From: Nitrosarchaeum sp.
Lineage (GTDB): Archaea; Thermoproteota; Nitrososphaeria; Nitrososphaerales; Nitrosopumilaceae
Reading direction: 5' to 3'
DNA: 64,000 nucleotides
NCBI GenBank assembly: GCA_021414365.1
Contig: JAIOOR010000021.1
Coordinates: forward strand, 1-64,000
Part shown: positions 38,425 to 59,510 of the stretch, piece by piece
Position numbering within the stretch: the stretch's first letter is position 1
How the letters are laid out: the number at the start of each line of letters is the position of its first letter
The notes under the pieces: generated by a model
What the model saw: the letters and a program-made list of their open reading frames with translations, nothing else
Told to the model about the DNA's origin: nothing
The model's database searches: none
Made by a program: the position numbers and the translations under genes

Positions 38425-38988
38425 TTACTGATCATATACCATCAAACCTTTTTCTTCTAATAACGCATGTAAGTTATGAACAGATCTAAATACATCTGCT
38501 TCATTTTTTGCACCTGTACAGACAAGTTTTCCAGAAGAAAATATCAATATCACAGTTTTAGGGTCTAACATTCTATGAATTAATCCTGGAAATTGCTCTG
38601 GCTCATACATACTTCTTGGTAAGGTTCTAGCTGCTTTTTCCAAATGAACTTTCCCTCCTAGATTTATTGATGCTACAATATTTTGAACTGTGACTACTGC
38701 ATCTTTTTTTACTTTAATCCCCTCTTTTCGAAGTTTCTGCACTACTGTTTTTACGGCATTTCTTGCCATTTCTTCTGATTTTGAACCTGTACAAACCATT
38801 TTTCCAGTTCTAAAAATCAATGTTGCTGTTTTTGGATTTTTTAATCTAAAAACCAACCCTGGGAATTGATCTGGGTGATATTCTGTGTCTGGAAATTTTT
38901 TAGTTATATCGTTCAAGTCAAATTTTTGGTCTACTGATGCTGAAGCGACAACATTTACGATGCTAACCATGGGTTTTGACTGAGGCAT
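38425..38988 (-). CDS. tbp: TATA-binding protein
   Basis: The 187-residue general transcription factor consists of two direct repeats of the TBP fold (about residues 5-95 and 96-187). Each has FPGLVFRLKNPKTATLIFRT-like strands: the second reads FPGLIHRMLDPKTVILIFSS. Each repeat continues with GK-x-V-C-TG. It binds TATA boxes and recruits TFB and RNA polymerase. The whole protein is the core domain with almost no N-terminal tail, as in other archaea. Confidence 0.96.
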   Translation of the reverse strand: MPQSKPMVSIVNVVASASVDQKFDLNDITKKFPDTEYHPDQFPGLVFRLKNPKTATLIFRTGKMVCTGSKSEEMARNAVKTVVQKLRKEGIKVKKDAVVTVQNIVASINLGGKVHLEKAARTLPRSMYEPEQFPGLIHRMLDPKTVILIFSSGKLVCTGAKNEADVFRSVHNLHALLEEKGLMVYDQ

Positions 38989-40145: not shown

Positions 40146-41162
40146 ATGGAAACTCATCTTTTATTTCTTGGAGCTGGATGTTCAGTACCTTTAGGTTTTC
40201 CTGCAACTTCTCAATTAGCTTCAGAATTTGAAGAAAATACAACTAACTACTATTCTACATTATTTAAGGCAAAACATGATATTGAAATTAATGGTTTTAA
40301 TTATGATGTTGAAAATCTGTTAGAATATTTTCAAGGATTTTCAAATCCACGATACTATCTTACTAGAAAAGGATCTTTTGCATCCTCGCTTTGTAAAACT
40401 CAACCTATTTCTAAATTAAATCCTGATCAATATTGTTTGTATTTAAAAAATGAACTAGAAGAACATTTGATTACAAAATGCTTTAAAGAAGGACCTGAAA
40501 TAAAAAAAGGTTTTAAAGTTTTTTATGACAGATTGTTTGCAAAAATTTCTGGAATTTCTGATTGGAAAACATCTGTTCCAAATTGGAATAACCACACATT
40601 TGAAATATTCACTACCAATTTTGATAACTCTCTTGATACATATGCTGTTGAATCAGATACGGAATATACACGAGGATTTATAATAAATGGAAATGATGAG
40701 GTTTGTTTTAATCCTGAACTTTTTGATAGAACTGCATATGGGATAAAAATTATTAAAATTCATGGTTCAGTCGAATTTTCAAAATTAGAAGACGGAATTA
40801 TTATTTCTAAAATTCCTCCCACATTACCTGGAAATCTACATTGTGATAAAAAAATTGAATCAAAAGTGATGGTTTATGGTATTGAAAAAATTTTAACTAT
40901 CGAACCATATCTTGAATTATTGTTAAAACTAAAAAAGTCCCTATTATCTGCAACAAAATGTACTGTAATAGGATATTCTTTTAGAGATGAGTGGGTTAAA
41001 ACTATGTTTGAAGAGGCAGTTAAAGAGAAAACTCCTGAAAATTTTTCAATTGATCTGATTGATCCTGGAGCTACTAAAATCAAAGAGAGTTTGCCTAAAC
41101 TAAAATCTTTTATTAATGCAATAGATATGCCAGGTCAAAAATATTTAGAATTAGAATCATGA
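40146..41162 (+). CDS. SIR2-like domain protein
   Basis: The 338-residue protein has the NAD-binding features of the SIR2_2-type defence family: LFLGAGCSVPLGFPA at residues 6-20 (the GAG-x-S loop), TTNFDNSLD at about 155, KIHGSV at about 202 with the catalytic-type His, and VIGYSFRDEWV at about 272. There is no zinc-binding Cys module, unlike true deacetylases. In known systems such proteins deplete NAD+ upon phage infection. It overlaps the next gene by four bases and is the first of a probable three-gene unit. Confidence 0.8.
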   Translation: METHLLFLGAGCSVPLGFPATSQLASEFEENTTNYYSTLFKAKHDIEINGFNYDVENLLEYFQGFSNPRYYLTRKGSFASSLCKTQPISKLNPDQYCLYLKNELEEHLITKCFKEGPEIKKGFKVFYDRLFAKISGISDWKTSVPNWNNHTFEIFTTNFDNSLDTYAVESDTEYTRGFIINGNDEVCFNPELFDRTAYGIKIIKIHGSVEFSKLEDGIIISKIPPTLPGNLHCDKKIESKVMVYGIEKILTIEPYLELLLKLKKSLLSATKCTVIGYSFRDEWVKTMFEEAVKEKTPENFSIDLIDPGATKIKESLPKLKSFINAIDMPGQKYLELES

Positions 41163-42145
41163 CTGAAAATTGGAAAGGAGTTCGGCCTATAAGATACTCT
41201 GAAGATATTTTTGATGTTTTAGATTATCTGGTTTCAAATAATTCTACAAAAATTGAAAATTTACGTATACTTTTAACCAAAAAAAGAGAAGAAAGAGAAA
41301 AAAGACGATTAACTGCTTTACAAATACGTAGAACAACAGAATCAAAAATTAGGAAAAAAGAAGAATTTCTTACTAAAACAGAACAACTAATTCGTGTTTT
41401 GCTTAATTTAAAACTAATTAAAAAAGAAAAACTATCTTTCATTTCTACTCCTCCAGCTAAATCCATAGTTGAATTGATTAAAAATGGTAAAAAGCTTGAT
41501 GCACAATCAAAATTTTTAGAAATGTTGTTTGATTCCACTTATCCTGCATATTTGTTATTTATTAAACAATTAACTAAAACTCCAATAATTATTCCAAAAG
41601 AGAAAAACAAACGTAATAAAGAATTTAGTGATTTTTTGAAAAAACAAAACATGTTTCTTGATTCATGGTCGTTTTTTGTAATTCGAGATTTATTTTATGA
41701 TTTTAATTTATTAAATTATTCAAATAAAGAAAATGAACAACAAATATTTGCAGTATGTACATTTGATCCTAAAAAAATTAAATTCAAACAAAAAATTAAA
41801 ACAGCATCTGGATTTTTATACAATTATCCTATAATATGTAAAACTGATTTTATAAAAAATTTAACTGAGTCTTATCTAACACTTACCGATAGACGTTGGG
41901 GAACACTGGTGAATTTTTTAGATTTACGTGAAAATTTCACTGAACGCTTTACCATTTCAGATAATCAATTCAATGAATTGATCTCTGAATCCTTTTCAAA
42001 AACCATTTTATCCATAAAAATTGTTCCTAGTGTAGGCTCTATTAGACCTAGTGAAAGAAAATCAAATATGGTAAAGGTCTTAAATTTACCTATGGACAAA
42101 TCTGGTATACCCTACACATTGATAAGGATGACGAAGGAGATGTAA
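41159..42145 (+). CDS. unknown helical protein of the SIR2 operon (328 aa)
   Basis: I do not recognise this protein. The N-terminal ~100 residues are a charged helical region with a likely coiled coil (KKREEREKRRLTALQIRRTT). The middle and C-terminal parts mix helices and strands, ending in a basic segment (SERKSNMVKVLNLPMDKSGI). It has very AT-rich codons. The position between the SIR2-like gene (4-base overlap) and the ATPase (3-base gap) suggests it is an adaptor or sensor between the two. No catalytic motif is visible. Confidence 0.7.
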   Translation: MTENWKGVRPIRYSEDIFDVLDYLVSNNSTKIENLRILLTKKREEREKRRLTALQIRRTTESKIRKKEEFLTKTEQLIRVLLNLKLIKKEKLSFISTPPAKSIVELIKNGKKLDAQSKFLEMLFDSTYPAYLLFIKQLTKTPIIIPKEKNKRNKEFSDFLKKQNMFLDSWSFFVIRDLFYDFNLLNYSNKENEQQIFAVCTFDPKKIKFKQKIKTASGFLYNYPIICKTDFIKNLTESYLTLTDRRWGTLVNFLDLRENFTERFTISDNQFNELISESFSKTILSIKIVPSVGSIRPSERKSNMVKVLNLPMDKSGIPYTLIRMTKEM

Positions 42146-42148
42146 ATA

Positions 42149-43252
42149 ATGGTCACATGGGAAGACTATGAACTAACCGATATTCCATTTCGTGAAACGG
42201 GACACATAGATACTTCGTTAATGGATGTTAGACTTAACGGGAAAATTTTTAGTAAAGATGGATTTGAACCAACTTTTGATAAATTATTATCTTTAATTAG
42301 CAAAGACAAATCTGTTTGTTATTTACGTTCTCATAAGGAAACACGCGGAACTGGAAAATCTACTTTACTAGCTGCAGTTTATTGGCACTTGAAAGATGAA
42401 TCTTCAAAAGAATATTTGCCAACTTGGGTAACAGTACATGATTATAGGACCGTAACGCATTTGTTTTCACGAATTCTTGATACTTTTGTTACAAATGGAG
42501 TTTTTACAAAGATTCATGAAAAACTAGAAGAAGTTACTGTAGATTCAATTTCATCATTATTAAGTAAAAAAATTTCATCTCCCTCCCCATCTGTAATAGA
42601 TGCTGTTGCAAAAATATTATCAGTACCTGATGGTCAATTAGCATGGAAATATCAAAACATTAGAAGATCTATTCCATTTGTTTCACCTTTTGAAATTTTT
42701 TCATATATTATGATGATGTATTCTGAAATTGATTCTAGAAAAATCATTGTTTTCATAGATCAGTTTGAAGAATATGTTCAATTTCAACGCCAATCACGAA
42801 AACTCCCACAATTGGCAGAAGATTTGAAAGACATCTACAGAATGTGTTCACAACTCCAAAACATGACTTTTGTTCTTACATTACATCCTGTCTCTGAAAG
42901 TGATTTTGAAAGTGCTGGAAAAGAACTCCTCCACACATATGGAAATATTAGTGAAAATGCAGCTGATTTAGAAGAAATCACAAATAAACAATTGGTAAGT
43001 GTAGCTGTAAAATATTTAAAATATTATAGAGCTCCTAATGCTCCTAACGATATTGAAAAATATCACCCTTTTACAAAAGAGGCAATAGACTACATTGCTG
43101 AAAAATCCCATCTTAATTGTAGGACTATGATTAGATTATTGCATAATGCTTTGATGGAAGCGCGTGAGGAGGGCCAATTGAAATTGTCTTTGGAGTTTAT
43201 TAAAGATCCCAAAACTCATGAAGCTATTGGTTTAGGTGTTTTAGAATCCTAA
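42149..43252 (+). CDS. P-loop ATPase of the SIR2 operon (AAA/STAND-like)
   Basis: The 367-residue protein contains a P-loop RGTGKSTLL at about residue 66, preceded by KET where a Gly or Ala is normal, so Walker A deviates from GxxxxGK. Walker B is VFIDQFEEYV at about 202, with DQFEE typical of STAND and Orc1/AAA ATPases. A C-terminal helical part follows (about 280-367). It most likely uses ATP binding to sense or transmit an infection signal to the SIR2-like protein. Gene overlap and spacing support a complex of the three proteins. Confidence 0.72.
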   Translation: MVTWEDYELTDIPFRETGHIDTSLMDVRLNGKIFSKDGFEPTFDKLLSLISKDKSVCYLRSHKETRGTGKSTLLAAVYWHLKDESSKEYLPTWVTVHDYRTVTHLFSRILDTFVTNGVFTKIHEKLEEVTVDSISSLLSKKISSPSPSVIDAVAKILSVPDGQLAWKYQNIRRSIPFVSPFEIFSYIMMMYSEIDSRKIIVFIDQFEEYVQFQRQSRKLPQLAEDLKDIYRMCSQLQNMTFVLTLHPVSESDFESAGKELLHTYGNISENAADLEEITNKQLVSVAVKYLKYYRAPNAPNDIEKYHPFTKEAIDYIAEKSHLNCRTMIRLLHNALMEAREEGQLKLSLEFIKDPKTHEAIGLGVLES

Positions 43253-43257
43253 TAAAA

Positions 43258-43464
43258 ATGCCATCTAACAAGGAAATTAAAGAATATGTTAAATCAAAAT
43301 ATGGATTCAGTCCTAAAAATGCCTGGATTGCTCATGCAAAAGAACATTATGGAATTTCAGTTAAACGAGCTCACAATAGAAAAAGCACTAAAAGATTATG
43401 GCCTTGTCCTAAAAAACGTCTAGTAGAGTTTAAAGAAATCTTTGAACATTTTGGTATATTGTAA
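43258..43464 (+). CDS. small conserved protein, CWIAHVKE-like family (68 aa)
   Basis: The 68-residue protein contains AWIAHAKEHYGI followed by KSTKRLWPCPKKRL and a final EIFEHFGIL. I recognise the combination as that of a short family found in many bacteria with the core CWIAHVKE and CPPEKR. Its function is unknown. Its last base overlaps the DUF5615-like gene (TAATG), so the two are translationally coupled. Profile search would settle the family. Confidence 0.6.
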   Translation: MPSNKEIKEYVKSKYGFSPKNAWIAHAKEHYGISVKRAHNRKSTKRLWPCPKKRLVEFKEIFEHFGIL

Positions 43465-43760
43465 TGTCTAGAAAAATTATTCTTGATGTACCTTTAGAAG
43501 ATTTAAAAGATATTTTATCTGATAAAGGATGGGAAGTAGAAACTGTTACAAAAAAACTAGGTCCTACTAAAGAAGATAGAGCAGACAAAAATATTCTCAA
43601 CTATGCTTTACAAAATAAAGAAATCATCGTAGTTACTGTGGATAAACCATTTGTTTCTAGACTACGTTCTTCTGGAATTAAGGTAGCTGCATTGACTCTT
43701 GAAGATAAGGCAAAAATCATTAATGAAAAATTAATTTCCATTGATTCTGAATTTGATTAA
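43464..43760 (+). CDS. DUF5615/Mut7-C-like PIN-fold protein
   Basis: The 98-residue protein begins IILDVPLEDLKDILSDKGWE and continues ADKNILNYALQNKEIIVVTV, then DKPFVSRLRSSGIKVAAL. The conserved acidic residues at D-x(n)-ADKN and VTVDKPF match the PIN-like DUF5615 group, of which some are ribonucleases. The first acidic residue is in ILDVPL. In many genomes DUF5615 genes follow a DUF433 antitoxin; none is seen here. The preceding 68-aa gene may be its partner. Confidence 0.7.
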   Translation: MSRKIILDVPLEDLKDILSDKGWEVETVTKKLGPTKEDRADKNILNYALQNKEIIVVTVDKPFVSRLRSSGIKVAALTLEDKAKIINEKLISIDSEFD

Positions 43761-43796: not shown

Positions 43797-44321
43797 ATGG
43801 CAAAACGAAAAGGTTCACATGCACATTATGAGATAATGTTTGAAGACTTTCTGAGAGAAAATAATATTTTGTATATAGCAGTAGATGAAACTAGAAGACC
43901 TGTTATTGATGGCGGGTCTGTAAAGAATTTTGATTTCATTGTAAGTTCCTTTAATGGAAAATATCTTGTTGACATAAAGGGAAAAGATTTCTCATCTAGA
44001 ACTTGGGATAATTGGGTTCATGAATCTGATTTGACTGGATTGAAAATTTGGGGGAATCACTTTAATGCATTTATTCCACTATTGGTAATCCCTTATTTGA
44101 TAACAAATACTAAAGATATTCAAGTTTTACAACCTTATGCGGATATAAGAAAATTCAAAGGCAAAACTTATGGAATTATAGGGGTAACTTTAGCTGATTA
44201 TTACTCTAGAGCAAAAATTCGCTCAAAAAAATTTACTGCAATATATGTAAGCAGGCAAGATTTTTTAGAAATCTGTAAACCTTTAAGCCATTTTATTCCT
44301 GAATTTAAGAAGAATTGGTGA
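43797..44321 (+). CDS. PD-(D/E)XK-like nuclease
   Basis: The 174-residue protein has the pattern HAHYEIMFEDFLRENNILYI, then AVDETRRPVI, NFDFIVSS and KYLVDIKGKDF. The last two fit the D-(x)n-DxK catalytic core of the PD-(D/E)XK superfamily, and the HYE-type start occurs in a widespread family I recall from other bacteria. It may cut DNA. The helicase-nuclease gene begins one base after its stop, so the two are probably co-translated. Confidence 0.7.
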   Translation: MAKRKGSHAHYEIMFEDFLRENNILYIAVDETRRPVIDGGSVKNFDFIVSSFNGKYLVDIKGKDFSSRTWDNWVHESDLTGLKIWGNHFNAFIPLLVIPYLITNTKDIQVLQPYADIRKFKGKTYGIIGVTLADYYSRAKIRSKKFTAIYVSRQDFLEICKPLSHFIPEFKKNW

Positions 44322-44322
44322 C

Positions 44323-47300
44323 ATGAGCTATAATCTTAATTCTCAACAACAAGAAGCAGTATCTCATGTAAATGGACCATTACAAGTAATTGCAGGTCCT
44401 GGCAGTGGTAAGACCTTTGTCATTGTTGAAAAAGTAAAAAATCTAGTAACTTCTGGAATTCCTCAATCTGCCATTTTGTGTATGACTTTTACTGAAAAAG
44501 CAGCAGGAGAAATGCGTCAAAGACTAGAAAAGTTTGGAATTTTGGATGCTAAAATTAACACGTTTCACTCCTTTGCTAAAGAAATACTGGAAGATAATTT
44601 CATAGAGTCTGGACTTGGCAAGTCTACTAAGATTTTTAAAAAAACTTCTCAGCTTGTTTGGTGTATAAGAAACACCGACAGATTTAATTTCAATACTGAT
44701 TATTTAGATATTGGAAACAACCAGGTCAGAATTTACACTGCAATTTTAGAAGCAATAAGCTCATTTAAAGAAGAGATGATCTCCCCTGATGAACTACAAA
44801 ACTACATAATTAAGAATTTAAAAAAATTAAAAACTGATGATCAAGATGACATTGAAGTAAAAAAACAACTCAAATTTTTTCACAGATTAAATGAATTTAA
44901 CAAAGTTTATCATGAATATGAAAAATACCGTGATGAAAAAAATTTAATTGACTTTGATGATATGGTAACTAAAGCCATCTCATTACTAGAAAAAGACCTT
45001 GTAATCTTACAACATTATTTGGACAAATTTAATTATATTCTAGTTGACGAGTTTCAGGATAATAATTATTCTCAGCTCAAACTGGTAAAAATACTAGGAA
45101 AAGGAAAAAATGTTACAGTTGTAGGCGATGACGATCAATGCATCATGAGATTTCAGGGTGCATACTTTGGTATTTTTAGAGACTTTCAAAACACTTATCC
45201 TGATTTTAAGAGAATCGAGCTTAGCCAAAACTATCGTAGTACAAAAAATATTGTAAATCTTGCAAATAGCCTCCTAGAGCCAATCCCAAACAGAGAGGCA
45301 AAGTCATTATTTTCAAAAGAAGAGGAAGGTGAACTTGCCAGAGTAGTCAAAACGCCAACTGAGAAAGGCGAGGTAGAATATGTTGCAAAAACAATCCGAA
45401 CACTAATTGACAAACCCCTAAAACGAAGAGATGGTACAACATCCCCAATAACGTTCAAAGACATTGCAATATTGTCTAGAAGAAAAGTTGAAGGACAAAA
45501 ATTTACAAAATCATTGCGTTCGTTTGGAATTCCAGCTACTTTTATTGGTGAGACAAACATCTTTACCAGTCCTGCAATATTAGACCTTGTCTCATTTCTA
45601 AATATTGCAAATTCTCCTACATCTTCTGGTGCAGAAATTTACCGTCTACTCAAAAGCCATGGAATCTCTGAACAGAATATTGCAATTTTAACAAATGCAG
45701 CTCATAAAAAAGCAAGACATATCTATGCAGGAGAGCAAGATTTTGTCCTTGACACAATAAAAAAAGTGCAAGAGTTTGATGTAACACAAAAATCAGAAAT
45801 TACTGAATTAATTGAACAGATAGATAAAGTAGTTGAAATTTCCAATCATTCTACAATTAGTGAACTTGTTTACAAAATAATGTTTAATGTATCCGATTTA
45901 TACAAAAAATCCGTAAACTCTGATAAGGCTTTTGATAAAAAAAATATTTTATTGTTAAATAAATTTTACGAGATTACACAAGAATATCAGGACATTTATC
46001 CAACAAATCCATTATCTGATTTTTTAGAACACATTTCCATAATTAGTAATTTTGAAATTGAGATTGAAGATATAGTTCTTGAAAATACTGTTAATGTACT
46101 TACAATGCATAAAAGTAAAGGAAAACAATTCCCAATAGTTTTTGTAACTGATCTGGCAGACGGTAGGTTTCCTGGTCACTGGAGAGAATTACTCTTTACA
46201 ATGCCCACTGAGCTAATGAAAGGTGTAGATAGAACAGCTGATTCTGAGGCTTTACACATTGATGAGGAAAGAAGACTGTTTTATGTAGCCATGACTCGAG
46301 CCATGAATCTCTTGTTTTTACTTTACCCAAAGCGATATTCTGAGAATGTAAATGAAAAACCACCGTCTCAGTTTTTGCGTGAATTAGACTATGAAAATAA
46401 TTCACTAATTGAAGTAGTAGAGTTTGAAGAATCTTCTGACTTTAACATGGAAGCAGAAGATGTGCTTGAAAGAGAAAAAGCAGATTTGCAAAGAGAGGCT
46501 ACTAGTGCAATCAATCAACTACATCTTACAACTGCAATACATAGAATCATAGAGTTATCGAGAATCAAACATTATGAAAAATATGGAAGTTTTGATGACT
46601 TTGATCCCACTTCAATTATGAAAATTGATGTTTCTGATTTGGATTTCTCATCTGATATAACTGGCAAAAAGCAACCGCTAATCAACAAAGATGAGTTTAC
46701 TTTGTCTCCAAGTAGCATCAAAGCATATGATGACTGTCCATTAAAATTCAAATTTCAAAAAATCTTACGTGTTCCTCAACCTGCAAGTGTTGCAACTGAT
46801 CTTGGAACTGTAATTCATGCAGTAACTGAAGAGATGGCAAATGAAAAAGCTAAAGGACAAAAACTAGACAAGCAAAAAGGCATTGAGAAATTAAAAGAGA
46901 AATGGATCTTCCGTTCATATCAAAACAAAACTGATGAAAATAGGGCAATGAACAGGGCAGAACAAATGATTGATGCTTATCTTAAATGGGAAAATTCTAC
47001 GAAAAATACTCTAGTTGAAACTGAATTACCTTTTGAAGTAAAAATTGGTGAGATTACATTTACTGGTAGAATAGATAGACTGGAAAAAAACAAAGATGGT
47101 AAATTTGAGATTGTTGATTTCAAGTCTGGCTCTTCAGTTAAATCCAAGAATAAAGCCAAAATTGATCCTCAGCTAAACATTTACGCAAAGGCAGTGGAGA
47201 AGATAAAAGGAGAACTTCCAGTCAAGGCTTCTTTGTTTTATGTAGAAAAAGACAAGATGGTTGAATATGATGTGTCTGTAGAATCTGTAAAAGAGGCACT

Positions 47301-47424
47301 AGAACCAATAGAGGAGATGACAAAAGAGATTCTAAAAGAGAATTTTGAGCCTACACCAAGCACTCAGGCATGCATGTTTTGCTCCTATCAGAGCATATGT
47401 GATGCTAAAATTTTGGATGAATAA
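44323..47424 (+). CDS. UvrD-type helicase fused to a RecB-like nuclease with Fe-S cysteines
   Basis: The 1033-residue protein has all SF1A motifs: IAGPGSGKTFVIVEK (residues 23-37), CMTFTEKAAGEMRQR, LVDEFQDNNYSQL, VVGDDDQCIMRFQGA, LSQNYRSTKNIV, TMHKSKGKQFPIVF and RRLFYVAMTRAMN. The C-terminus from about 790 is a RecB/AddB-type PD-(D/E)XK domain with GRIDRLEKNKDGKFEIVDFK and a cysteine set (YDDCPLKF and CMFCSYQSIC) likely to hold a 4Fe-4S cluster. It is the size of an AddB- or AdnB-like subunit; no partner subunit is visible. It may process foreign or broken DNA ends. Confidence 0.85.
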   Translation: MSYNLNSQQQEAVSHVNGPLQVIAGPGSGKTFVIVEKVKNLVTSGIPQSAILCMTFTEKAAGEMRQRLEKFGILDAKINTFHSFAKEILEDNFIESGLGKSTKIFKKTSQLVWCIRNTDRFNFNTDYLDIGNNQVRIYTAILEAISSFKEEMISPDELQNYIIKNLKKLKTDDQDDIEVKKQLKFFHRLNEFNKVYHEYEKYRDEKNLIDFDDMVTKAISLLEKDLVILQHYLDKFNYILVDEFQDNNYSQLKLVKILGKGKNVTVVGDDDQCIMRFQGAYFGIFRDFQNTYPDFKRIELSQNYRSTKNIVNLANSLLEPIPNREAKSLFSKEEEGELARVVKTPTEKGEVEYVAKTIRTLIDKPLKRRDGTTSPITFKDIAILSRRKVEGQKFTKSLRSFGIPATFIGETNIFTSPAILDLVSFLNIANSPTSSGAEIYRLLKSHGISEQNIAILTNAAHKKARHIYAGEQDFVLDTIKKVQEFDVTQKSEITELIEQIDKVVEISNHSTISELVYKIMFNVSDLYKKSVNSDKAFDKKNILLLNKFYEITQEYQDIYPTNPLSDFLEHISIISNFEIEIEDIVLENTVNVLTMHKSKGKQFPIVFVTDLADGRFPGHWRELLFTMPTELMKGVDRTADSEALHIDEERRLFYVAMTRAMNLLFLLYPKRYSENVNEKPPSQFLRELDYENNSLIEVVEFEESSDFNMEAEDVLEREKADLQREATSAINQLHLTTAIHRIIELSRIKHYEKYGSFDDFDPTSIMKIDVSDLDFSSDITGKKQPLINKDEFTLSPSSIKAYDDCPLKFKFQKILRVPQPASVATDLGTVIHAVTEEMANEKAKGQKLDKQKGIEKLKEKWIFRSYQNKTDENRAMNRAEQMIDAYLKWENSTKNTLVETELPFEVKIGEITFTGRIDRLEKNKDGKFEIVDFKSGSSVKSKNKAKIDPQLNIYAKAVEKIKGELPVKASLFYVEKDKMVEYDVSVESVKEALEPIEEMTKEILKENFEPTPSTQACMFCSYQSICDAKILDE

Positions 47425-47452: not shown

Positions 47453-49207
47453 TTGATTAATAAAAAAGACGTTGAAATTGGTTTTGGTGGAGCACCATTT
47501 CACAAAGATCATGGACTAATTCGTTTTTATCGATATAGCTGGACTCCTAAAGTTCTAGAAATAGGATTTGATAATAAAAAATTAATTTGGTATTATAATT
47601 TCTCACAAAATAACTATTCAAATTTTTCCATTTCCACTAACCCTGATTCATTTTTTAAAAAAAGTATTCTGGGAAAATTTCAGAGTCAAGAGTATGATGA
47701 TGTTTTTCCAGATGACTTGATTCAATCTGTAAATGTTTGTCTTAATCGTCTTTTGGCTTATTATCATATAGGGGCATATGAAAAAATGATTGAACTATGT
47801 GATACAATCATAAAAAAGAAAATTGAATCAGGCCTTACAAATCATTCAAGCTTCTCTATGGAAAATTCAGAAAAAGCCAAAGCTTTGTGTAAACTAGACA
47901 GATATGCTGAAGTAATTCCTCTTCTTGACAAAAATACTGGAATATATGATAATCATCTAAAAATTTTTGCCTTGTTGAAATTGGGAAGAGAAGATAGAGC
48001 AATTGAAATTATAAAAAAACTTACAAAGTCACGTGGTAAGTCTGGTCTATATGTTGGAAGATTTGAATTTCCAGAAGTACATCAACTGTTTGTTGAAATG
48101 TCTCTTGTTTCAATTAAAAAAAGACTACTTACAGTAGATGAAAAATATCTACTAAAAAATATTATTATAAATAAAGTTGTGCCTATTTATAACCGAGATT
48201 TTGTCGAACTAGCTTCTAAAGAAAGTAAAAAATTAACTCTGGACATTAATTTAGATGAATTAGAAAAAATTTATCCAACATCGAATCAAGCAGATGTTAA
48301 ACCATCACAATACTTGTCTTTTGATGAATCACGCAAGTATACTCAAAAACTTGATTTGAAAAATGAAAAAGATTGGAAGAAATACTGTATATCAGGCACA
48401 AAACCTGACAATATTCCTCTAAATCCAAAAAAAGAGTATTCTTTTGAGTGGCAGGGCTGGGATGATTGGTTAGGAATCACAAAGAGCAAATATCTTTCTT
48501 ATGATGATGCAAGAAAATTTGTCAATAATTTAGAACTTGAAAATGAAAAAGAATGGAAATTATTTTGTAAAACTGGTAAATTGCCAAATAACATTCCTAC
48601 GAATCCAAAAAAAGTTTACACTAGTGAATGGACTAATTTCTCTGATTGGCTTGGAATCTTTGATCGAGAGTATCTGTCTTTTGAAAAAGCCAAGGAATCT
48701 ATGGCTACGTTACTTTTGGAATTTCCTTCTGATTGGAAGGAATATTGTAAATCTGGTAACAAACCAAAGAATATCCCAACAAAACCTGATAAAATTTATG
48801 CAAAACAGTGGGTTGATTGGGATGATTGGTTGGGATTGTATGATCGTGAATATCTGTCATATGCAGAACAGAAAAAATTTGTATCCACTTTAAAGTTTGA
48901 TCATTCTTTTCAATGGAGTGAATATGCCAAATCTGGTAGTAAACCAAAAAACATTCCTGCAAGACCTTTTCAATATTATGGTCATAAAAAAATTGAATTT
49001 GACATTTATGATTGGTTTGGACTTAATGAGCGAGAATACTTGCCATTTGAAGAAGCCAGAATAATTGTTAGAAGTCAAAAATTCAAAACTCGAGAAGAAT
49101 GTTTAGAATGGGAAAAAACTCAAAAACCTGATAATATTCCTGGGAATCCTAGTTATGTTTATCGAGAAAAGGGTTGGTATGGTTATACTGATTGGTATGG
49201 AGTGTAG
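47453..49207 (+). CDS. protein with TPR-like part and five 60-residue integrase-type repeats
   Basis: TTG 47453 gives 584 residues; an ATG upstream is in another frame. The N-terminal domain (1-85) is unassigned. A middle part (about 100-270) has TPR-like helices (YHIGAYEKMIELCDT, LALLKLGREDRAIEII-like). From residue 287 there are five repeats at 60-residue spacing, starting near 287, 347, 407, 467 and 529. Each has YLSFDEA-like, W-x-x-Y-x-SG-x-KPxNIP and DWLG motifs. They match the so-called phage-integrase repeat unit and may bind DNA or protein. Confidence 0.75.
   Translation: MINKKDVEIGFGGAPFHKDHGLIRFYRYSWTPKVLEIGFDNKKLIWYYNFSQNNYSNFSISTNPDSFFKKSILGKFQSQEYDDVFPDDLIQSVNVCLNRLLAYYHIGAYEKMIELCDTIIKKKIESGLTNHSSFSMENSEKAKALCKLDRYAEVIPLLDKNTGIYDNHLKIFALLKLGREDRAIEIIKKLTKSRGKSGLYVGRFEFPEVHQLFVEMSLVSIKKRLLTVDEKYLLKNIIINKVVPIYNRDFVELASKESKKLTLDINLDELEKIYPTSNQADVKPSQYLSFDESRKYTQKLDLKNEKDWKKYCISGTKPDNIPLNPKKEYSFEWQGWDDWLGITKSKYLSYDDARKFVNNLELENEKEWKLFCKTGKLPNNIPTNPKKVYTSEWTNFSDWLGIFDREYLSFEKAKESMATLLLEFPSDWKEYCKSGNKPKNIPTKPDKIYAKQWVDWDDWLGLYDREYLSYAEQKKFVSTLKFDHSFQWSEYAKSGSKPKNIPARPFQYYGHKKIEFDIYDWFGLNEREYLPFEEARIIVRSQKFKTREECLEWEKTQKPDNIPGNPSYVYREKGWYGYTDWYGV
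48311..49207 (+). repeat. five in-frame 180-base coding repeats
   Basis: The YLS(F/Y)-(D/E) start of each unit occurs at about 48311, 48491, 48671, 48851 and 49036, a period of 180 bases except for the last interval. Each unit ends in DW-x-G. They differ at many codons, so this is an old protein repeat and not a recent DNA duplication. Confidence 0.85.
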
Positions 49208-49345: not shown

Positions 49346-52099
49346 CTAATGGATATTTCTTTCAATGATTTCTATGTCATTTTGTTTAAGATCATATTCA
49401 TCATAAATTAATTGACATAATTTTTTTTCTATCTCATCAGTTTTAAAACTATCTTCTTTTTTTAATTGAATTAATTTTTCAGTAAGTGCTATGATTTCAT
49501 CTTCATGTTTTTTTCTTTTTGGAATTGGAACATTTTCCATATATTGTGATTTATAGATATAATATCCTCCTCGTAAATATGGGCATATTTTTTTCATATA
49601 ACAATCTATAACAGTTGAATTTAAAATGGATAGTAACCATAAATCATTACTTTTGATTTGATATAATGCAGCGCTTGGAAAATAATTATTATCATTAATT
49701 GCAAAATTTGGTTTTGTATTCATATCTGGATATACGATTCCTTTTTCTAAGAAAATCCCCCAATATGCAGTAGAATCTTGTATTTCAAACCATTTGTACT
49801 TTCCTGGTTTTCGTCCTATTGAATTTGTATTCTTTTTTGGAGTTAGTTTTTCTTTAAATTTTAAAAGATGTTTTTTTATTGCAGGATATTTGTCTATATC
49901 TATTCCTCTTCGTGTGAAAATGATGTATTTTTCATCCCATTTGATATTATAGCTTTTTACTTCTCTTCCAGTAATGTACGGAAAAATTATTTCTTTTGAC
50001 TTTGGATCATCTTTGATAATCTCATAATACTGCTCTTGTGTTATTACAAATGCTTCATTTAAACCCGTAGTAACACCTCTGTAGAACTGATTATCTTCAA
50101 TTTCTTTTAATGGAATTGTTTGTTCTATAATTTTATCTATTAATTTTTCAAGTTCTTGATCTTTTAGATCCCAACTATTATCTGTAAGTAATTTTTGAGA
50201 AAATTCTTTTTTATTTTTTTCAACATAATTTTGTAAGTTATTGGGGATTTCTTTTACATTGCAAACTTTTATTTTCAAATTTTTCATATGTTTTTTTTTA
50301 ATTATAATTATACATGGATAAGTAGTTGCCCCTGGAAAAATTTGTAAATCCCCAAAATCAATTATTTCTTCAATCCAAAAATCTTTCAAAAAGTTTCTAA
50401 GATTCCGTCCATATTCTCTTTTTAACCATTTATTTGAAACTACTATTCCCAAATATCCTCCATCTTTAAGTAATTCCAAACTTTTTTCAATAAAATAAAC
50501 AAAAAGATCTGCTGTTCCTACATGAGTTTGATAATTTTCTTTTAAATATGGTTTTATTTTGGTCAATTTTTCTTGTCTCACATAAGGTGGGTTTCCTATG
50601 ATGATATCAAAACCCTTTTCGTTTTCTAATACTCCGTGAAATTCTTTTTTCCATACAAAAGCCAATGGGTCTATGTTGTAATCTTCTATAATCGAATTCC
50701 CATGTCTAATATTTTGTTGAAGAATCGGTAAATGACGTTTCTTTTCTGTGATTTTTAAAAGAAGATTTAGTTGGATTATCTCAGTAGCTATTTTATCGAG
50801 ATCTACTCCAAATAGATTTTCTTTGAGGATTTGAACTTTTTTAGAATAAACTCCGCCTTCAATTTCTGAACTTAGTTGTGTTTGATGGAAATCAGTATCT
50901 TTTCTAATGTTGTAATGATATAGAAAATCATAAGCTTTAATCAAAAACGAGCCTGAACCGCATGCAGGATCCAGTATCCTTATTTTTGTGTAATCAATTT
51001 TTTTACCTTCAATTAACTTGCCCAATGTATTTTTTACAATATACTCCACAACAAATCTTGGAGTATAGAAAATTCCTTGTTTTTTACGTTCAGTTTCTAT
51101 ATTTGTTATGTCTGTAGTTCTAAAAAATCGTAAATATTGTTCATACATTTGTCCTAAAACATCTGATTCAATAATAGAAAAATCATACTGAATTGATTTG
51201 TCTTCTGATATATACAATCCTTCAATAATTTCCTGTAATATAGAATTACTAATTTCTAATTTATCGCATAAGTGATCTGAAAATATTGTCCCACCATAAT
51301 TTTCTTCAAAATAATCAAAAATTTTTCTAAGATGTTTTACTAATCTCTCATCTTTTGTCTCTTCCCACTCTCTTAGGTGTGTGATTAAATGTTTCTGCTC
51401 TAATCTTCTATCTCCACATGCCCTGATGAAAATTAATCTGTTCAATATTTTATGGACTGATTCATCAATCTCTTCTATGGAAAATTTTTTTGAATTATTT
51501 TTTTGAATATCATATGATAACTTATTTGAAAATTTTAAAAGATCTTCTAGTAATTGTTCATCTATTGGAGTTTTCTTTTGTTTTTTTGAGAAATATTCAG
51601 CTTCCTTATCTATAATATCTAATTCAAATGATTTTTTTAAAAGATATGCCAGTCTATCGTATTTTGATATGAATTCTTCAAAAGTAATTTCAAAAAATTG
51701 CATCTGCATAGGTGTTTTTCCTTTGACTTCTGAATTTAGAATTTTAATTTTCTTAAAATTTGTAATTATTGCCCATGTTATACCTTTGTTAAATGCAAAA
51801 GTTGTTACTGGTACTATCCATTTTTTATCATCAATATTTTCATCTATAGATGCAATTTTGAGAACAAATTTTGTTATGCCGTCTATCTCAAAAGAATAAT
51901 CTGCTCTGTCTTTTGATGTTGTGGTAACATCAATAACTGATGGATTTTTACCCTCGAATTCCCAACCTAAGCCTGAAAATAATGGAATGATAAATTCACT
52001 AGCTGTCTTTTTTTTATCATATTTGCTGGTGTCTGGAATTTCGTTGAATTTTTTAATTAACCCATTAAGAAAACTCTCCATATTTGATGTGGGTTTCAT
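49346..52099 (-). CDS. Eco57I-like DNA methyltransferase, type IIG-related, with degraded nuclease domain
   Basis: The 917-residue protein has a gamma-class N6-adenine methyltransferase core with motif I DPACGSGSFLIKAYDF (about residue 375), motif IV IIGNPPYVRQEK (about 500) and a C-terminal specificity region ending GGYYIYKSQYMENVPIPKR. The N-terminal domain (1-130) resembles the restriction part of type IIG enzymes, but where an ExK would follow DYSFEIDG the strand reads KFVLKIASIDE. Without that site it may be a solitary modification enzyme. Start is ATG 52099; TTG 52102 and ATG 52081 are alternatives. Confidence 0.82.
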   Translation of the reverse strand: MKPTSNMESFLNGLIKKFNEIPDTSKYDKKKTASEFIIPLFSGLGWEFEGKNPSVIDVTTTSKDRADYSFEIDGITKFVLKIASIDENIDDKKWIVPVTTFAFNKGITWAIITNFKKIKILNSEVKGKTPMQMQFFEITFEEFISKYDRLAYLLKKSFELDIIDKEAEYFSKKQKKTPIDEQLLEDLLKFSNKLSYDIQKNNSKKFSIEEIDESVHKILNRLIFIRACGDRRLEQKHLITHLREWEETKDERLVKHLRKIFDYFEENYGGTIFSDHLCDKLEISNSILQEIIEGLYISEDKSIQYDFSIIESDVLGQMYEQYLRFFRTTDITNIETERKKQGIFYTPRFVVEYIVKNTLGKLIEGKKIDYTKIRILDPACGSGSFLIKAYDFLYHYNIRKDTDFHQTQLSSEIEGGVYSKKVQILKENLFGVDLDKIATEIIQLNLLLKITEKKRHLPILQQNIRHGNSIIEDYNIDPLAFVWKKEFHGVLENEKGFDIIIGNPPYVRQEKLTKIKPYLKENYQTHVGTADLFVYFIEKSLELLKDGGYLGIVVSNKWLKREYGRNLRNFLKDFWIEEIIDFGDLQIFPGATTYPCIIIIKKKHMKNLKIKVCNVKEIPNNLQNYVEKNKKEFSQKLLTDNSWDLKDQELEKLIDKIIEQTIPLKEIEDNQFYRGVTTGLNEAFVITQEQYYEIIKDDPKSKEIIFPYITGREVKSYNIKWDEKYIIFTRRGIDIDKYPAIKKHLLKFKEKLTPKKNTNSIGRKPGKYKWFEIQDSTAYWGIFLEKGIVYPDMNTKPNFAINDNNYFPSAALYQIKSNDLWLLSILNSTVIDCYMKKICPYLRGGYYIYKSQYMENVPIPKRKKHEDEIIALTEKLIQLKKEDSFKTDEIEKKLCQLIYDEYDLKQNDIEIIERNIH

Positions 52100-52170
52100 C
52101 AAATTCTTGATTATTCAAGTGCCTAAATTCTTTGCTCAATTTTTTCAATAATCTTATTTACTCAAAAGTT

Positions 52171-53430
52171 ATGAACTTAATATTGAAAAATCCTGAGAAT
52201 AAAATGGCCTTACAGGAATACATTGACAAAAATAAAGACAAATGTCTGACTCCTGAACGGGTTCCTGTACTCCTGAAAGGAAAAAAAGAATTGTTATTTG
52301 TATACAACATTCCATTAGACTATCTCTACTTTAACATCAAAAACGGGAGATTCAAGGCTGAATATTTGGAATTGGTTCGTAAAAATGGAGGAAAAGAACT
52401 AGATCCAACCAAAAAAGATGATGCAAAAAAAATCCAAACACTACTTCTCAATTTGGATCTTATAGAAACCAAAAGAACCACACTTGACATCAAACAACGT
52501 GGTCAGTGGAATCCAGGAATTATGACCCATGATGGGTTTGTAATTGACGGAAATAGAAGATTATCTATTTTACAAAATCTCGCAAGAGAAGATTCAAAGT
52601 TTAATGTAATGAAAGTGGCAAGACTACCTTCAACTGTAGACAAAAATGATCTTTGGAAGTTAGAAGCTGGAATTCAATTAGGCAAAGATGAAATTGTTCG
52701 ATATGGTCCTATTAACGAATTATTAAAATTAAAAGAAGGTGTTGATGCAAATTTATCTCCAAGTGAAATTGCCAATACGCTTTATGGATTCAAAGATGAT
52801 AGTGAAATTATACGAAAACTTGACAGACTAAAACTCATTGAAGAGTATCTTGAATTCAATGGTGTCCCTCAAAAATACAGTAAAGTCAAAGGTAAGGTTG
52901 AACATTTCATTAATGCTCAAAATATTCTAGATTTTTACTATGCACGAGAAGCAGATATGGTACTTCGAAAAGCACTGAGACGTGCTATATGGGCACTAAT
53001 TAGTGACGGTCGCTCTCATTTAGAAATAAGAAAAATCAGAGATATGATAAAACTAGAATCTGAAAAAGCGTTAGAGTGGATTAAAAAAATTGCAGAAAAA
53101 TCAAAACCCATTCCACCAAATTCTGTCGTTACTACACCTGAAAAAACACTTGCAGAACATGTATCTGAAACAATAGATCATGAATTTGAAGCACAAGAAG
53201 TAGAAGAGGACGATTCAAAACCTAGTGAGGTTAAAACAATGTGGATTAATGCAATTGAAGCATTAAATGTTGTAAAAAATAAAAATGATCTTCCAAGACT
53301 TTTAGGAAATGCACTTGAAAATTTGGATGGATTGGATTACACTAGTGAACAGCTAAAAACAAAGCAATGCAATGAGTTAATTCAGCAAATTCTTAGACAT
53401 GCTGAAAAACTCAAAACAAAATTAGGTTAA
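52171..53430 (+). CDS. ParB/Srx-fold protein of the SNF2-methyltransferase operon
   Basis: ATG 52171 gives 419 residues. The ParB-type motif HDGFVIDGNRRLSILQNLAR is near residue 117 and the family normally binds nucleotide or cuts nucleic acid at this place. C-terminal to it are helical parts including a possible helix-turn-helix (LSPSEIANTLYGFKDDSEII) and an acidic linker (EAQEVEEDDSKPSE). It is the first gene of the operon and is divergent from the methyltransferase on the minus strand by 71 bases. I infer a DNA-binding or regulatory role; a nuclease role is possible. Confidence 0.72.
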   Translation: MNLILKNPENKMALQEYIDKNKDKCLTPERVPVLLKGKKELLFVYNIPLDYLYFNIKNGRFKAEYLELVRKNGGKELDPTKKDDAKKIQTLLLNLDLIETKRTTLDIKQRGQWNPGIMTHDGFVIDGNRRLSILQNLAREDSKFNVMKVARLPSTVDKNDLWKLEAGIQLGKDEIVRYGPINELLKLKEGVDANLSPSEIANTLYGFKDDSEIIRKLDRLKLIEEYLEFNGVPQKYSKVKGKVEHFINAQNILDFYYAREADMVLRKALRRAIWALISDGRSHLEIRKIRDMIKLESEKALEWIKKIAEKSKPIPPNSVVTTPEKTLAEHVSETIDHEFEAQEVEEDDSKPSEVKTMWINAIEALNVVKNKNDLPRLLGNALENLDGLDYTSEQLKTKQCNELIQQILRHAEKLKTKLG

Positions 53431-53434
53431 TCAA

Positions 53435-55411
53435 ATGAGTTCTCTTACCATTGATGATACTGGAAGTCTAGTTTTAGAATATGATTTTACAGGGGATTAT
53501 GAAGTTGATTTTGATTTAATGGATACAGTAGGTAGTGGAGATTTTAAAAAAATTCAACAGGATGAAAAAAAAGTAATCTTTGCTTATCCTAAAACAAGTA
53601 ATAAAGTGAAATTTTTTAAAACTGCTCAATCTTTGCAAGATTATTTTGATAATAATCCAAAACTCGGTACTCTTGAAATTAGTGATGAGATTGAAAAAAA
53701 TCTCGTTGAGCAACAACAGGAAAATGAATTATTTCAAGAAGCATTAGAAAAAGGAGCATCTGTTAAAAATAAAAAACAACATGATCCCGTTTTAGGTTTA
53801 AATTTTAAGAGAAAACTTTTGCCTTTTCAAAAAGAATCTGTTGAACATCTGTTGGCTGTGAATAATGGTGCAAATTTCTCTGTTCCTGGAAGTGGGAAAA
53901 CAACTATGACATATGCAGCTGTATCAAAATGGTTAGAAGATGGAATCGTTGAAAAGATTATGGTTATTGGACCTACTGCTTCGTTTGTACCATGGGAAGA
54001 AGAATATTTTGGTTGTTTTGGAAAAAAACCTAGATCACTTAGAATCAAAGGGGACATTGCTGAAATTTTAGAAAACATTGGAGATAGTTATGATTTATTT
54101 CTATTACACTATCAAACATCAAATTCAAAAAGAATGGAAATCATGAATTTTCTTAAAAAATATAAAACTGTACTTATAATTGATGAATCCCACAGAATTA
54201 AAAATCCAAATCTTGGAGCTTGGGCAAACGCAGCATTGTTTCTCGCCCAATTTGCTACAAGACGAATTATTCTTTCTGGAACACCTGCACCAAATAATTA
54301 TCTGGACCTGTGGAATCAAATAACATTTTTGTGGCCACATGATTTCCCATTAGGAAATCAAAGTAGGTATAATGATTATGTCAAAAAACGAGGATTAAGT
54401 CCCGAGCATCGAACTACGCTACAATCTTTGTTCTGTAGAGTTATGAAAGGTGATCTTCATCTACCTGAACCAAAATTTATTCCAATTATGGTTGATCTTG
54501 GAGAACATCAACGACAAATCTATGATGTAATTGCTGCTAATACTCTGGATGAAATTGAAAGTCTAGAAGAACAATCGAGATTACAAAGATTTAGGATTGC
54601 AAGAATGATTAGATTACTTCAATCCGCCTCTAATCCATCCTTATTATTTGAAATGTCTCATGAGTTTAATGTACACAGTCCTCTCTTTAACTCTCCAAGA
54701 GAAATGGTAAGTGCACAACTAGGTTTTGATGTTGACTCTATTGATAATAATGAATTGAAAAGTCTGTCAATATCCGATAAAATAATGCGATATTCTGATC
54801 TTGAAATTCCTAGTAAGATAAGAAAAGTTGCATCGCTAACAAAAGATCTTGTCAATAAAGGAGAGAAGGTCTTGATTTGGAGCTCCTTTTTACTCAATAT
54901 GCATATCTACGAAGAAGAAGTTCTAAAAGAATTTGAACCAATTTTGATTTATGGTGATGTATCTAAAGATCCAGACGTTCAACCAAATAGAGATGATTTG
55001 GTAAATCGCTTCAAAAATGATCCTGATTGTAAGGTGCTTATAGCTACTCCTGCTTCTCTTGGGGAATCTGTCTCTTTACATAAAAATGCAAATGAAGAAT
55101 CTGTATGTAGAAATGCAATCTATCTGGATAGAAATTTCAACGGTGCTCAATTCATGCAATCAGTTGATAGAATTCATAGAATAGGTATGCCTGAAGATGT
55201 CACTGTAAACTATCATCTTGTTATTGGAAGAGATACAATTGATGAGCAAATACATCAACGATTATGGGAAAAGTGGGAAAATATGACTCATGCTCTTGAT
55301 GATCCATTTCTTCAAACAGTTGAGTTTGATGTAGTTAATGAATCTCAAGATGAATTTGAACAAGATTATGCTGCACTGGTTAAACACTTGCGTGAATTAA
55401 AAAGCAAATAG
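53435..55411 (+). CDS. SNF2-type helicase of the methyltransferase operon
   Basis: The 658-residue ATPase has motif I as FSVPGSGKTTMTYA (residue 148 on), not the LADEMGLGKT of common SNF2 proteins. Other motifs are IDESHRIKNP at about 249, ILSGTPAPNNYLDLW at about 280, LIATPASLGESVSL at about 534 and QSVDRIHRIGMP at about 575. The N-terminal 130 residues are unassigned. This SVPGSGKT type belongs to a defence-associated branch as far as I can judge. It starts four bases after the ParB-like gene and two bases before the DUF3883 gene, so the operon is continuous. Confidence 0.85.
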   Translation: MSSLTIDDTGSLVLEYDFTGDYEVDFDLMDTVGSGDFKKIQQDEKKVIFAYPKTSNKVKFFKTAQSLQDYFDNNPKLGTLEISDEIEKNLVEQQQENELFQEALEKGASVKNKKQHDPVLGLNFKRKLLPFQKESVEHLLAVNNGANFSVPGSGKTTMTYAAVSKWLEDGIVEKIMVIGPTASFVPWEEEYFGCFGKKPRSLRIKGDIAEILENIGDSYDLFLLHYQTSNSKRMEIMNFLKKYKTVLIIDESHRIKNPNLGAWANAALFLAQFATRRIILSGTPAPNNYLDLWNQITFLWPHDFPLGNQSRYNDYVKKRGLSPEHRTTLQSLFCRVMKGDLHLPEPKFIPIMVDLGEHQRQIYDVIAANTLDEIESLEEQSRLQRFRIARMIRLLQSASNPSLLFEMSHEFNVHSPLFNSPREMVSAQLGFDVDSIDNNELKSLSISDKIMRYSDLEIPSKIRKVASLTKDLVNKGEKVLIWSSFLLNMHIYEEEVLKEFEPILIYGDVSKDPDVQPNRDDLVNRFKNDPDCKVLIATPASLGESVSLHKNANEESVCRNAIYLDRNFNGAQFMQSVDRIHRIGMPEDVTVNYHLVIGRDTIDEQIHQRLWEKWENMTHALDDPFLQTVEFDVVNESQDEFEQDYAALVKHLRELKSK

Positions 55412-55412
55412 T

Positions 55413-56405
55413 ATGGTAATTAAATTAAAACAAATTCCTAAACTTTTAGGAATTATAAAAAAATTTGAAAAAAACAAAAATACAAAACCAATTATTGAAT
55501 ATGTTGCAAAAACTTTCAATAATTCTCCCGTTGAAGAAGCAATATATCCTGATTTTGATGAACTTGGAAAATTTTGTAAAGATATAGAAATTTTAAAATT
55601 TGAAAATGATGTAATTACAATTACTTCTTTGGGTAACCAAATATTTGATGAATATGAAAAAAATCTTCAATTAAGTTCTGAATTAAAAAAACTTTTTCGT
55701 GATCAATGCTTTCTAAAAGGCTCATTTTCAGAATCTGTTAACGATGGTCTATCTCGATTCTTTAAAACAAGAAATGAGGTTTGGGCACCTTCTGATCAGG
55801 TTTATGATTTATTTCAAAATAAAGAACTTTTACCACTTTTGTACGAGTGCGAATTACTTACATTAGTAGGTGATAAAGTACTTCTTAATTCTGAGTATAA
55901 TGATAAGATCTCAACCAAAAAAACTGCTAATCAGGTACGAATAACTCAGAAACAAATTGATAATCAATTACGATTGATGAAAAAAATTGGAGAAATTGCA
56001 GAAGAGTTAGTCGTTACATATGAGAAAAATAGGCTCAATGCAATTGGGTGTAAATTTGAATCAGATAAAGTACAGCGTATTAGTATTGGACATGCAAATG
56101 CAGGATATGATATTGTATCGTTTAATGACTCTCCGACTGATGGGGATTATGATAGGTTCATTGAAGTCAAGGGTTCTTCTGGTAGTGAAATTGACTTTCA
56201 TTGGTCAGAAAATGAAATAAAAACTGCTGCTGAATTACAAGACAAATATTGGATTTATTTTGTTCCTGATATTGATGTTGAGACCCGGAATACCGATTCT
56301 GAAATTAAGAAAATTCAAGATCCTCATAAAAATATTTTTGAAAATAATCTATTCTCTAAAACCACAGAGAACTTTCATATAAAAAAAATAAATGACATTA
56401 ATTGA
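55413..56405 (+). CDS. DUF3883 domain protein, probable nuclease
   Basis: The 330-residue protein has a helical N-terminus (about 1-180) and a C-terminal DUF3883 domain: KIGEIAEELVVTYEKNRL, HANAGYDIVSFNDSP, DRFIEVKGSSGSEIDFHWSE, NEIKTAAELQDKYWIYFV. The D in GYDI, E-V-K and the following region fit the PD-(D/E)XK catalytic pattern D-(x)n-ExK. It is a likely cutting component if this operon is a restriction system. Its stop codon overlaps the TTG start of the methyltransferase (TTGA). Confidence 0.82.
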   Translation: MVIKLKQIPKLLGIIKKFEKNKNTKPIIEYVAKTFNNSPVEEAIYPDFDELGKFCKDIEILKFENDVITITSLGNQIFDEYEKNLQLSSELKKLFRDQCFLKGSFSESVNDGLSRFFKTRNEVWAPSDQVYDLFQNKELLPLLYECELLTLVGDKVLLNSEYNDKISTKKTANQVRITQKQIDNQLRLMKKIGEIAEELVVTYEKNRLNAIGCKFESDKVQRISIGHANAGYDIVSFNDSPTDGDYDRFIEVKGSSGSEIDFHWSENEIKTAAELQDKYWIYFVPDIDVETRNTDSEIKKIQDPHKNIFENNLFSKTTENFHIKKINDIN

Positions 56406-57385
56406 AAAAACCTATAAGACATGATCCTAATGACAAATTGATCAAGTTGCCAAAATCGACTCTGAATTTAGATAGGATTTATCGTTGTGATTGTTTAAGT
56501 GCACTCAAAAAACTAGATCCTAATTCTGTGGACCTTATTGTTACATCTCCACCATATGCTGATAATAGAAAAAAAACATACGAAGGTATTCCTGTTGATA
56601 AATATGTGGATTGGTTTTTGCCAATCTCTAAAGAATTAAAACGAGTTTTAAAACCACGTGGTTCTTTTATTCTCAACATAAAAGAACGAACAATAAATTA
56701 TGAACGTGGAACATATGTTTTAGAATTAATTTTAGAAATGAGAAAACAAGGTTGGTTGTGGACTGAAGAATATCTATGGCACAAGAAAAATTCCTATCCT
56801 GGAAAATGGCCAAATAGATTCAGAGATTCTTGGGAGCGATGTCTTCATTTTACTAAACAGAAAAAATTCAAAATGTATCAAAAGTCTGTAATGGTTCCAA
56901 TGGGAAAATGGGCTGAATCTAGACTCAAAAATTTATCTGATATTGATATGGAGCGTGATCAATCCCGTGTAATGAGTGGATTTAGTAAAAATGTTTCAAA
57001 TTGGATGGGTAGAGACATGGTATATCCTACAAATGTACTTCATATGGCTACTGAATGCTCAAATGTTAATCATAGTGCCGCATTTCCAATTGCATTGCCT
57101 GAATGGTTTATCAAATTATTTACTAAAGATGAAGATATAGTGCTAGATCCATTTATGGGAAGTGGCACAACTGCGGTTGCAGCAATTAAATTAAATCGTC
57201 ATTATATTGGAATGGAAAAAAATCAATTATATCGCAAATATGCCAATCAAAGAATAAAAGATTTCAAACAGGAAATGAAGTTGAATCTTAATAAATTCAA
57301 ACAATGCATTGTAGAACTTGATGATGTTTATTCAAAACAGTTAGTTTTAAAAAATAATTACCAGAAAAATAAAAAATCTATTTGA
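56402..57385 (+). CDS. beta-class DNA methyltransferase (N4-cytosine or N6-adenine)
   Basis: The 327-residue enzyme has the motif order of beta-class methyltransferases: motif IV TSPPYADNRK near residue 47 precedes motif I DPFMGSGTTAVAAI at about 247. SPPY favours N4-cytosine methylation, though N6-adenine cannot be excluded. It should protect the host sites read by the SNF2/DUF3883 pair. The TTG start at 56402 overlaps the upstream stop codon. Target specificity (about 120-230) is unknown. Confidence 0.87.
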   Translation: MKKPIRHDPNDKLIKLPKSTLNLDRIYRCDCLSALKKLDPNSVDLIVTSPPYADNRKKTYEGIPVDKYVDWFLPISKELKRVLKPRGSFILNIKERTINYERGTYVLELILEMRKQGWLWTEEYLWHKKNSYPGKWPNRFRDSWERCLHFTKQKKFKMYQKSVMVPMGKWAESRLKNLSDIDMERDQSRVMSGFSKNVSNWMGRDMVYPTNVLHMATECSNVNHSAAFPIALPEWFIKLFTKDEDIVLDPFMGSGTTAVAAIKLNRHYIGMEKNQLYRKYANQRIKDFKQEMKLNLNKFKQCIVELDDVYSKQLVLKNNYQKNKKSI

Positions 57386-59363: not shown

Positions 59364-59382
59364 CGTTTTTCCTCCTTTTTGA

Positions 59383-59395
59383 ACCTGTCACAGGT
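59383..59395. promoter_or_regulatory. perfect palindrome upstream of the ATPase gene
   Basis: ACCTGT-C-ACAGGT, 6+1+6 bases, 20 bases before the GTG start at 59363 on the minus strand. It is centred about 26 bases upstream, over the position of a core promoter, where a bound repressor would block transcription. Confidence 0.5.
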
Positions 59396-59483
59396 ACGAA
59401 TCTATCCATTTTGAGATAATCTTGGAACACAAAATACTGTGAAATACCCAATGTGGGTTTTCAGATGACATCATGTTTTATGC

Positions 59484-59510
59484 ATGGCAATTATGGCAAG
59501 GATGGCAATT
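59484..59510. repeat. three tandem 9-bp iteron-like repeats
   Basis: ATGGCAATT, ATGGCAAGG and ATGGCAATT follow each other without gap directly after the stop codon of the MCM-like helicase gene. Their position next to a replication gene suggests an origin or a regulatory binding site. Confidence 0.6.

Follow-up and report, generated by a model that had tools for sequence, protein, structure and literature searches.

A conserved archaeal three-gene unit predicted to join a SIR2-like effector to an ORC/Cdc6-type ATPase and a putative winged-helix DNA reader

The window analyzed here, a 64,000-nucleotide stretch at the start of contig JAIOOR010000021.1 of a Nitrosarchaeum sp. genome, contains three closely spaced genes on the forward strand. 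They encode a 338-aa SIR2-like protein (positions 40146 to 41162), a 328-aa middle protein (41159 to 42145), and a 367-aa ATPase (42149 to 43252). The open reading frames confirmed the spacing given in the original prediction, with a 4-base ATGA overlap between the SIR2 and middle genes and a 3-base gap between the middle and ATPase genes. The host genome encodes an archaeal amoA (match at 5e-117) and, as identified by this sequence, is that of an ammonia-oxidizing archaeon.

The SIR2-like protein carries the motifs expected from the original prediction, namely, GAG at residue 9, TTNFD at residue 156, and KIHGS at residue 204 (H206), and it has no CxxC pair, in agreement with the reported lack of a zinc module. 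It matched the Pfam family SIR2_2 above the cut-off (2.5e-8) as well as SIR2-like defense models, and its nearest NCBIfam model, below the cut-off, was a SIR2 anti-phage protein. A profile of the three SIR2 proteins found in such trios (see below) matched the SIR2-like proteins 8w9l (5.5e-7) and 8j4u (1.5e-6) in the PDB, in alignments spanning the TTNYD and LHG motifs. The catalytic residues N158 and H206 are kept in all three proteins, as are G9-G11; loss of the active-site histidine, named beforehand as evidence against the prediction, was thus not seen. Judged by these motifs and matches, the protein is likely an NAD+-cleaving effector. Deacylases also occur among SIR2 folds, and ORC/Cdc6 ATPases, to which the third protein is related, have their role in replication, so the SIR2-like protein could instead be a deacylase or another NAD-dependent regulator of a DNA transaction of the ATPase rather than a toxin. 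We consider this improbable given the SIR2_2 membership, the matches to SIR2-like defense models and PDB entries, the missing zinc module, and the nucleases that occupy the SIR2 gene position in related units.

The middle protein had been described as belonging to no recognizable family, and indeed no match was obtained in Pfam, PADLOC, NCBIfam, or PHROGs. Structure prediction had been proposed earlier as a check on this 328-residue protein. The AlphaFold2 model (pLDDT 73, pTM 0.74) consists of three successive helix-rich blocks, each closing with a strand pair, as in winged helices, while a Foldseek search of the model against the PDB returned weak matches, several of them winged-helix proteins and none at an E value of ≤0.001. 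A homologous middle protein from a nuclease-type unit (described below) matched the Pfam AAA-associated C-terminal domain just below the cut-off (4.3e-5). Middle proteins of SIR2-type and nuclease-type units matched each other over most of their length in a profile comparison (E value of 2.5e-22), whereas those of SIR2-type and Dpd/Csa1-type units matched in the C-terminal winged helix only (80% probability). From the model, we infer that the middle protein is a DNA reader with three tandem winged helix-turn-helix (wHTH) domains. As it is predicted to have three tandem winged helices, it likely supplies the DNA binding of the unit, and the earlier suggestion that it may be the sensor fits such a reader.

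The ATPase contains a Walker A motif, RGTGKST (residue 66), and a Walker B motif, IVFIDQFEE (residue 200), the latter including the DQFEE noted originally. The accompanying label "STAND-like" is not the best name for this protein. Pfam gave weak matches to AAA, NB-ARC, and nSTAND1, all below their cut-offs (13.0 versus 27.1 bits for nSTAND1), and the AlphaFold2 model (pLDDT 85.9, pTM 0.85, from an alignment of 13 sequences) had as its best PDB fold matches Aeropyrum ORC2 and archaeal Orc1/Cdc6 (E values of 5e-6 to 1e-4). A STAND identity, which would call for a STAND NTPase core and long C-terminal sensor repeats, was therefore rejected on the grounds of these fold relatives, the subthreshold score, and the length of 367 aa. 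RdrA, BrxC, and TnsC were also among the fold matches. The protein is thus predicted from its model to be an AAA+ protein of the ORC/Cdc6 clade. In the model, the chain ends soon after the AAA+ lid, with terminal helices and no strand pair, and the C-terminal winged helix of true ORC/Cdc6 initiators was not found. Matches to acetyl-CoA carboxylase (down to 8e-4) were discarded, as they disappeared when a profile was used, and PDB sequence searches with the ATPase profile and with the middle profile gave nothing usable.

The unit lies in a defense-rich stretch (40 to 57 kb) that includes a UvrD helicase-nuclease, a Type IIG restriction-modification (R-M) enzyme, an SNF2 helicase, a NOV_C protein, and an N4/N6 methyltransferase. 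Upstream, positions 38425 to 38988 encode an apparent archaeal TATA-binding protein, judging from the sequence. Downstream, a 68-aa protein of no family (43258 to 43464) begins after a 5-base gap and overlaps by 1 base a gene for a 98-aa DUF5615/PIN-like protein (43464 to 43760; 4e-4, below the cut-off); neither gene was seen at the other two SIR2 units. Positions 43797 to 47424, possibly a separate defense unit, encode an HYExAFE-family protein (8.6e-38) and, immediately after it, a fusion of a UvrD helicase and a PD-(D/E)XK nuclease that shows similarity to GajB. A 584-aa protein with a KTSC domain and integrase-repeat units follows (47453 to 49207), and the Type IIG enzyme (PADLOC, 6.8e-110; secondary match to PglX) is encoded on the opposite strand (49346 to 52102). 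The apparent operon at 52132 to 57385, which looks like an R-M-like defense system, encodes a 432-aa protein of no known family, the SNF2-type helicase, the NOV_C-domain protein, and the N4/N6 DNA methyltransferase. No methyltransferase adjoins the three-gene unit in the window, the nearest being in these other apparent operons (49346 to 52102 and 56402 to 57385). Finally, positions 57621 to 61936 encode a 580-aa protein without a Pfam match and an MCM-type helicase (59510 to 61936; a relative of phrog_18685), possible signs of an integrated element. The UvrD-type gene is missing in 16 of the 17 other genomes of the genus, and the region is therefore variable.

The full trio was found in identical order and strand in a distant archaeon (G368), with 28/29/32% identity to the window proteins (SIR2/middle/ATPase); G368 and "Ca. 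Bathyarchaeota" palsa_989 (G457) are members of one class. A further full trio lies on IMG/VR contig 3300025546_000003. These two copies share 50/48/55% identity with each other and approximately 28 to 32% with the window. The recurrence, which had been named in advance as support, indicates that the unit is real, and the parallel identities of the three genes indicate that they diverged in step. A DNA methyltransferase is located next to two of the three SIR2 units, on the IMG/VR contig and, divergently oriented and short (201 aa), in G368. IMG/VR yielded no match when searched with the window ATPase or the window middle protein singly, nor did plasmid records, queried with the middle protein and with four ATPases, or phage records, queried with one ATPase.

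As one full copy is on a contig catalogued as viral, the unit could serve a mobile element, either by defending its carrier, whether a virus or an integrated element, against rivals or by killing cells that lose it. The variable region, with the UvrD-type neighbor so often missing, and the PHROG-related MCM-type helicase are in keeping with such a role. However, no viral hallmark was present in the scanned parts of the IMG/VR contig, and the other copies are on genome contigs with defense genes, which makes an element-borne weapon or addiction system unlikely.

The middle and ATPase genes form a pair that was found in 13 units, of which 3 include SIR2; as the survey drew on samples from a phylum and from classes (398, 257, 400, and 300 genomes), the contig scan used narrow patterns, and the pair profiles were seeded from earlier finds, this share is not an estimate of prevalence. 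Of the other units, five have PD-(D/E)XK-like nucleases, two have a Csa1-like nuclease with a methyltransferase, two have DpdA-type modification genes, and one (G118) has an unassigned neighbor. SIR2 is thus one exchangeable effector, and we infer that the pair is a mobile, general DNA-reading module. Its ATPases are homologous across the unit types (E value of 1e-16). In G457, G437, G709, and G639, the SIR2 position is occupied by a PD-(D/E)XK-looking protein with the motif HQ[FY]D..ECK, and an SMC-like ATPase adjoins the pair; a related PD-(D/E)XK-looking protein accompanies the pair in G590. The nuclease assignment of these proteins is motif based, with a subthreshold NERD match as the sole Pfam result. 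BrxL comes after the pair in G457 and, judging from sequence resemblance, in G709 as well. The Csa1-like nucleases are encoded in G744 and G156 (2.7e-25 and 1.2e-28), each with a methyltransferase, identified by Pfam in G744 and by sequence reading in G156. In G249 and G590, a TGT-like gene lies between the pair genes, and DpdA is next door (5.9e-87 and 1.9e-89). Two candidates were set aside: the 1,388-aa ATPase at L022 (G095), which is not part of a pair, and L046 (G641), with a weak match to the middle profile alone and no adjacent ATPase.

According to the original prediction, finding the middle and ATPase genes mostly without SIR2 would argue against a functional unit. Taken literally, this is the situation in 10 of the 13 units, 9 of which have nucleases or DNA-modification genes instead. 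Nevertheless, the SIR2 unit stands, because in the ATPase tree the SIR2-linked members group together in a single, fully supported clade (100/99), sister to the nuclease-linked members; support for monophyly of the SIR2 trio was weak (65/62). SIR2 genes found elsewhere in the phylum (G154, G077, G215, G053, G295, and G287) have no pair alongside and were matched far more weakly by the trio SIR2 profile. That most pair units lack SIR2 could also mean that SIR2 is independent of the pair and adjoins it by accident, but the gene order and tight spacing common to three distant loci, together with the single ATPase clade, make chance adjacency hardly credible.

We regard it as moderately probable that the trio is an antiviral unit in which a DNA-reading ATPase switch releases a SIR2 NADase on invading DNA. 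This proposal builds on the conservation of the unit, the preserved active-site motifs, the predicted ORC/Cdc6 fold, and the exchange of effectors around the pair. The three proteins would form a complex in which the triple winged-helix middle protein and the ORC/Cdc6-like ATPase jointly read DNA, with the middle protein supplying DNA binding in trans to an ATPase that lacks the C-terminal winged helix of the initiators. Invader DNA would be recognized, probably via its sequence, its replication state, or missing host modification. On such DNA, the ATPase would assemble and release the SIR2-like enzyme, which would destroy NAD+ and halt the infected cell. If this is true, NAD-depleting immunity in ammonia-oxidizing archaea gains a new trigger, in which an ATPase resembling origin-recognition proteins works with a DNA reader encoded separately. 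Since the pair is wired to nucleases and modification genes elsewhere, effector swaps would directly test its sensing.

Many of the pair units have methyltransferases or DpdA alongside, which makes it plausible that modification is what the pair senses. A narrower form of our preferred explanation, to which we give somewhat less than an even chance, is R-M-like: the pair would read the missing modification of a cognate methyltransferase, and SIR2 suicide would replace cutting. The methyltransferases beside the SIR2 units of the IMG/VR contig and G368 point this way, as do those found with a Csa1-like nuclease and the pair (G744 and G156) and the DpdA genes near the pair (G249 and G590). However, the window unit has no adjoining methyltransferase, the G368 copy is short, and colocalization is no proof of a trigger. 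More broadly, and tentatively, the units may represent an undescribed archaeal family in which an ORC-type ATPase and a triple winged-helix reader check self modification and drive differing outcomes, namely, SIR2 destroying NAD+, PD-(D/E)XK or Csa1-like nucleases cutting, or DpdA-type enzymes modifying bases.

The closest parallels to the switch proposed here are operons of an Orc/Cdc6 ATPase, a DndG-like triple-wHTH protein, and a restriction endonuclease (REase), predicted to be anti-element systems in PMC10853773 (NAR 2024). They share with our unit an ORC/Cdc6-clade ATPase, a multi-wHTH protein (putative in our unit), an effector, and a predicted counter-invader role, but their effector is an REase fused to ASCH. 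SIR2 is absent from the main text of that paper, and the text consulted for comparison contains no description of the archaeal pair, its SIR2 arm, or its Dpd/Csa1 links. The same text draws a comparison with SspB/SspC of the Ssp phosphorothioate system, which likewise combine a triple-wHTH protein and a Cdc6/Orc ATPase. A distant pair member (G744) matched SspC weakly (4e-6); in contrast to our unit, Ssp involves sulfur DNA modification and no SIR2, and SspC models have ~1,040 positions versus 367 aa for the window ATPase.

Kinship to HerA, AVAST, or DSR systems, as suggested originally, did not fit, given the ORC/Cdc6-like ATPase and the 338-aa SIR2 protein. As in SIR2-HerA and other SIR2-ATPase pairs, an effector of SIR2_2 type is encoded with an ATPase; however, the window ATPase had no HerA family or fold match in Pfam or the PDB fold search, and a third protein, of predicted DNA-binding type, is present. 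A DSR1/DSR2 identity was rejected, as these are single large proteins with an N-terminal SIR2; the IMG/VR homologue alone matched Dsr2, far below the cut-off (0.03). BrxD, a small standalone ORC/Cdc6 ATPase in DNA-modification-linked BREX defense (PMC12839542), is a precedent for a standalone protein of this clade. Distant pair members matched BrxD weakly, and the window ATPase did not match it in the defense-model search. Unlike the ATPase studied here, BrxD partners the BrxHI helicase, with no wHTH partner and no SIR2.

Of BREX, whose core comprises BrxC, PglZ, and PglX, the other traces are the BrxL beside the nuclease-type pair of G457 and the secondary PglX match of the Type IIG enzyme in the window. 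At L008 and L042, BrxL follows a nuclease-type pair adjoined by an SMC/LmuB-like ATPase, possibly an undescribed BREX-like assembly in archaea. The pairs beside DpdA and a second TGT-like gene in G249 and G590 resemble Dpd 7-deazaguanine systems, whereas the SIR2 units have neither DpdA nor TGT. Two archaeal loci, L020 (3890 to 9031) and L044 (2438 to 7579), encode a middle-like protein, a TGT-like protein, an ORC-like ATPase, and DpdA with a DpdC-like tail, with QueC also present at L020, which suggests that the pair also serves DNA base modification. Farther along L044 (8642 to 13319), a nuclease-like protein and a long middle protein are encoded with two tandem ORC-like ATPases.
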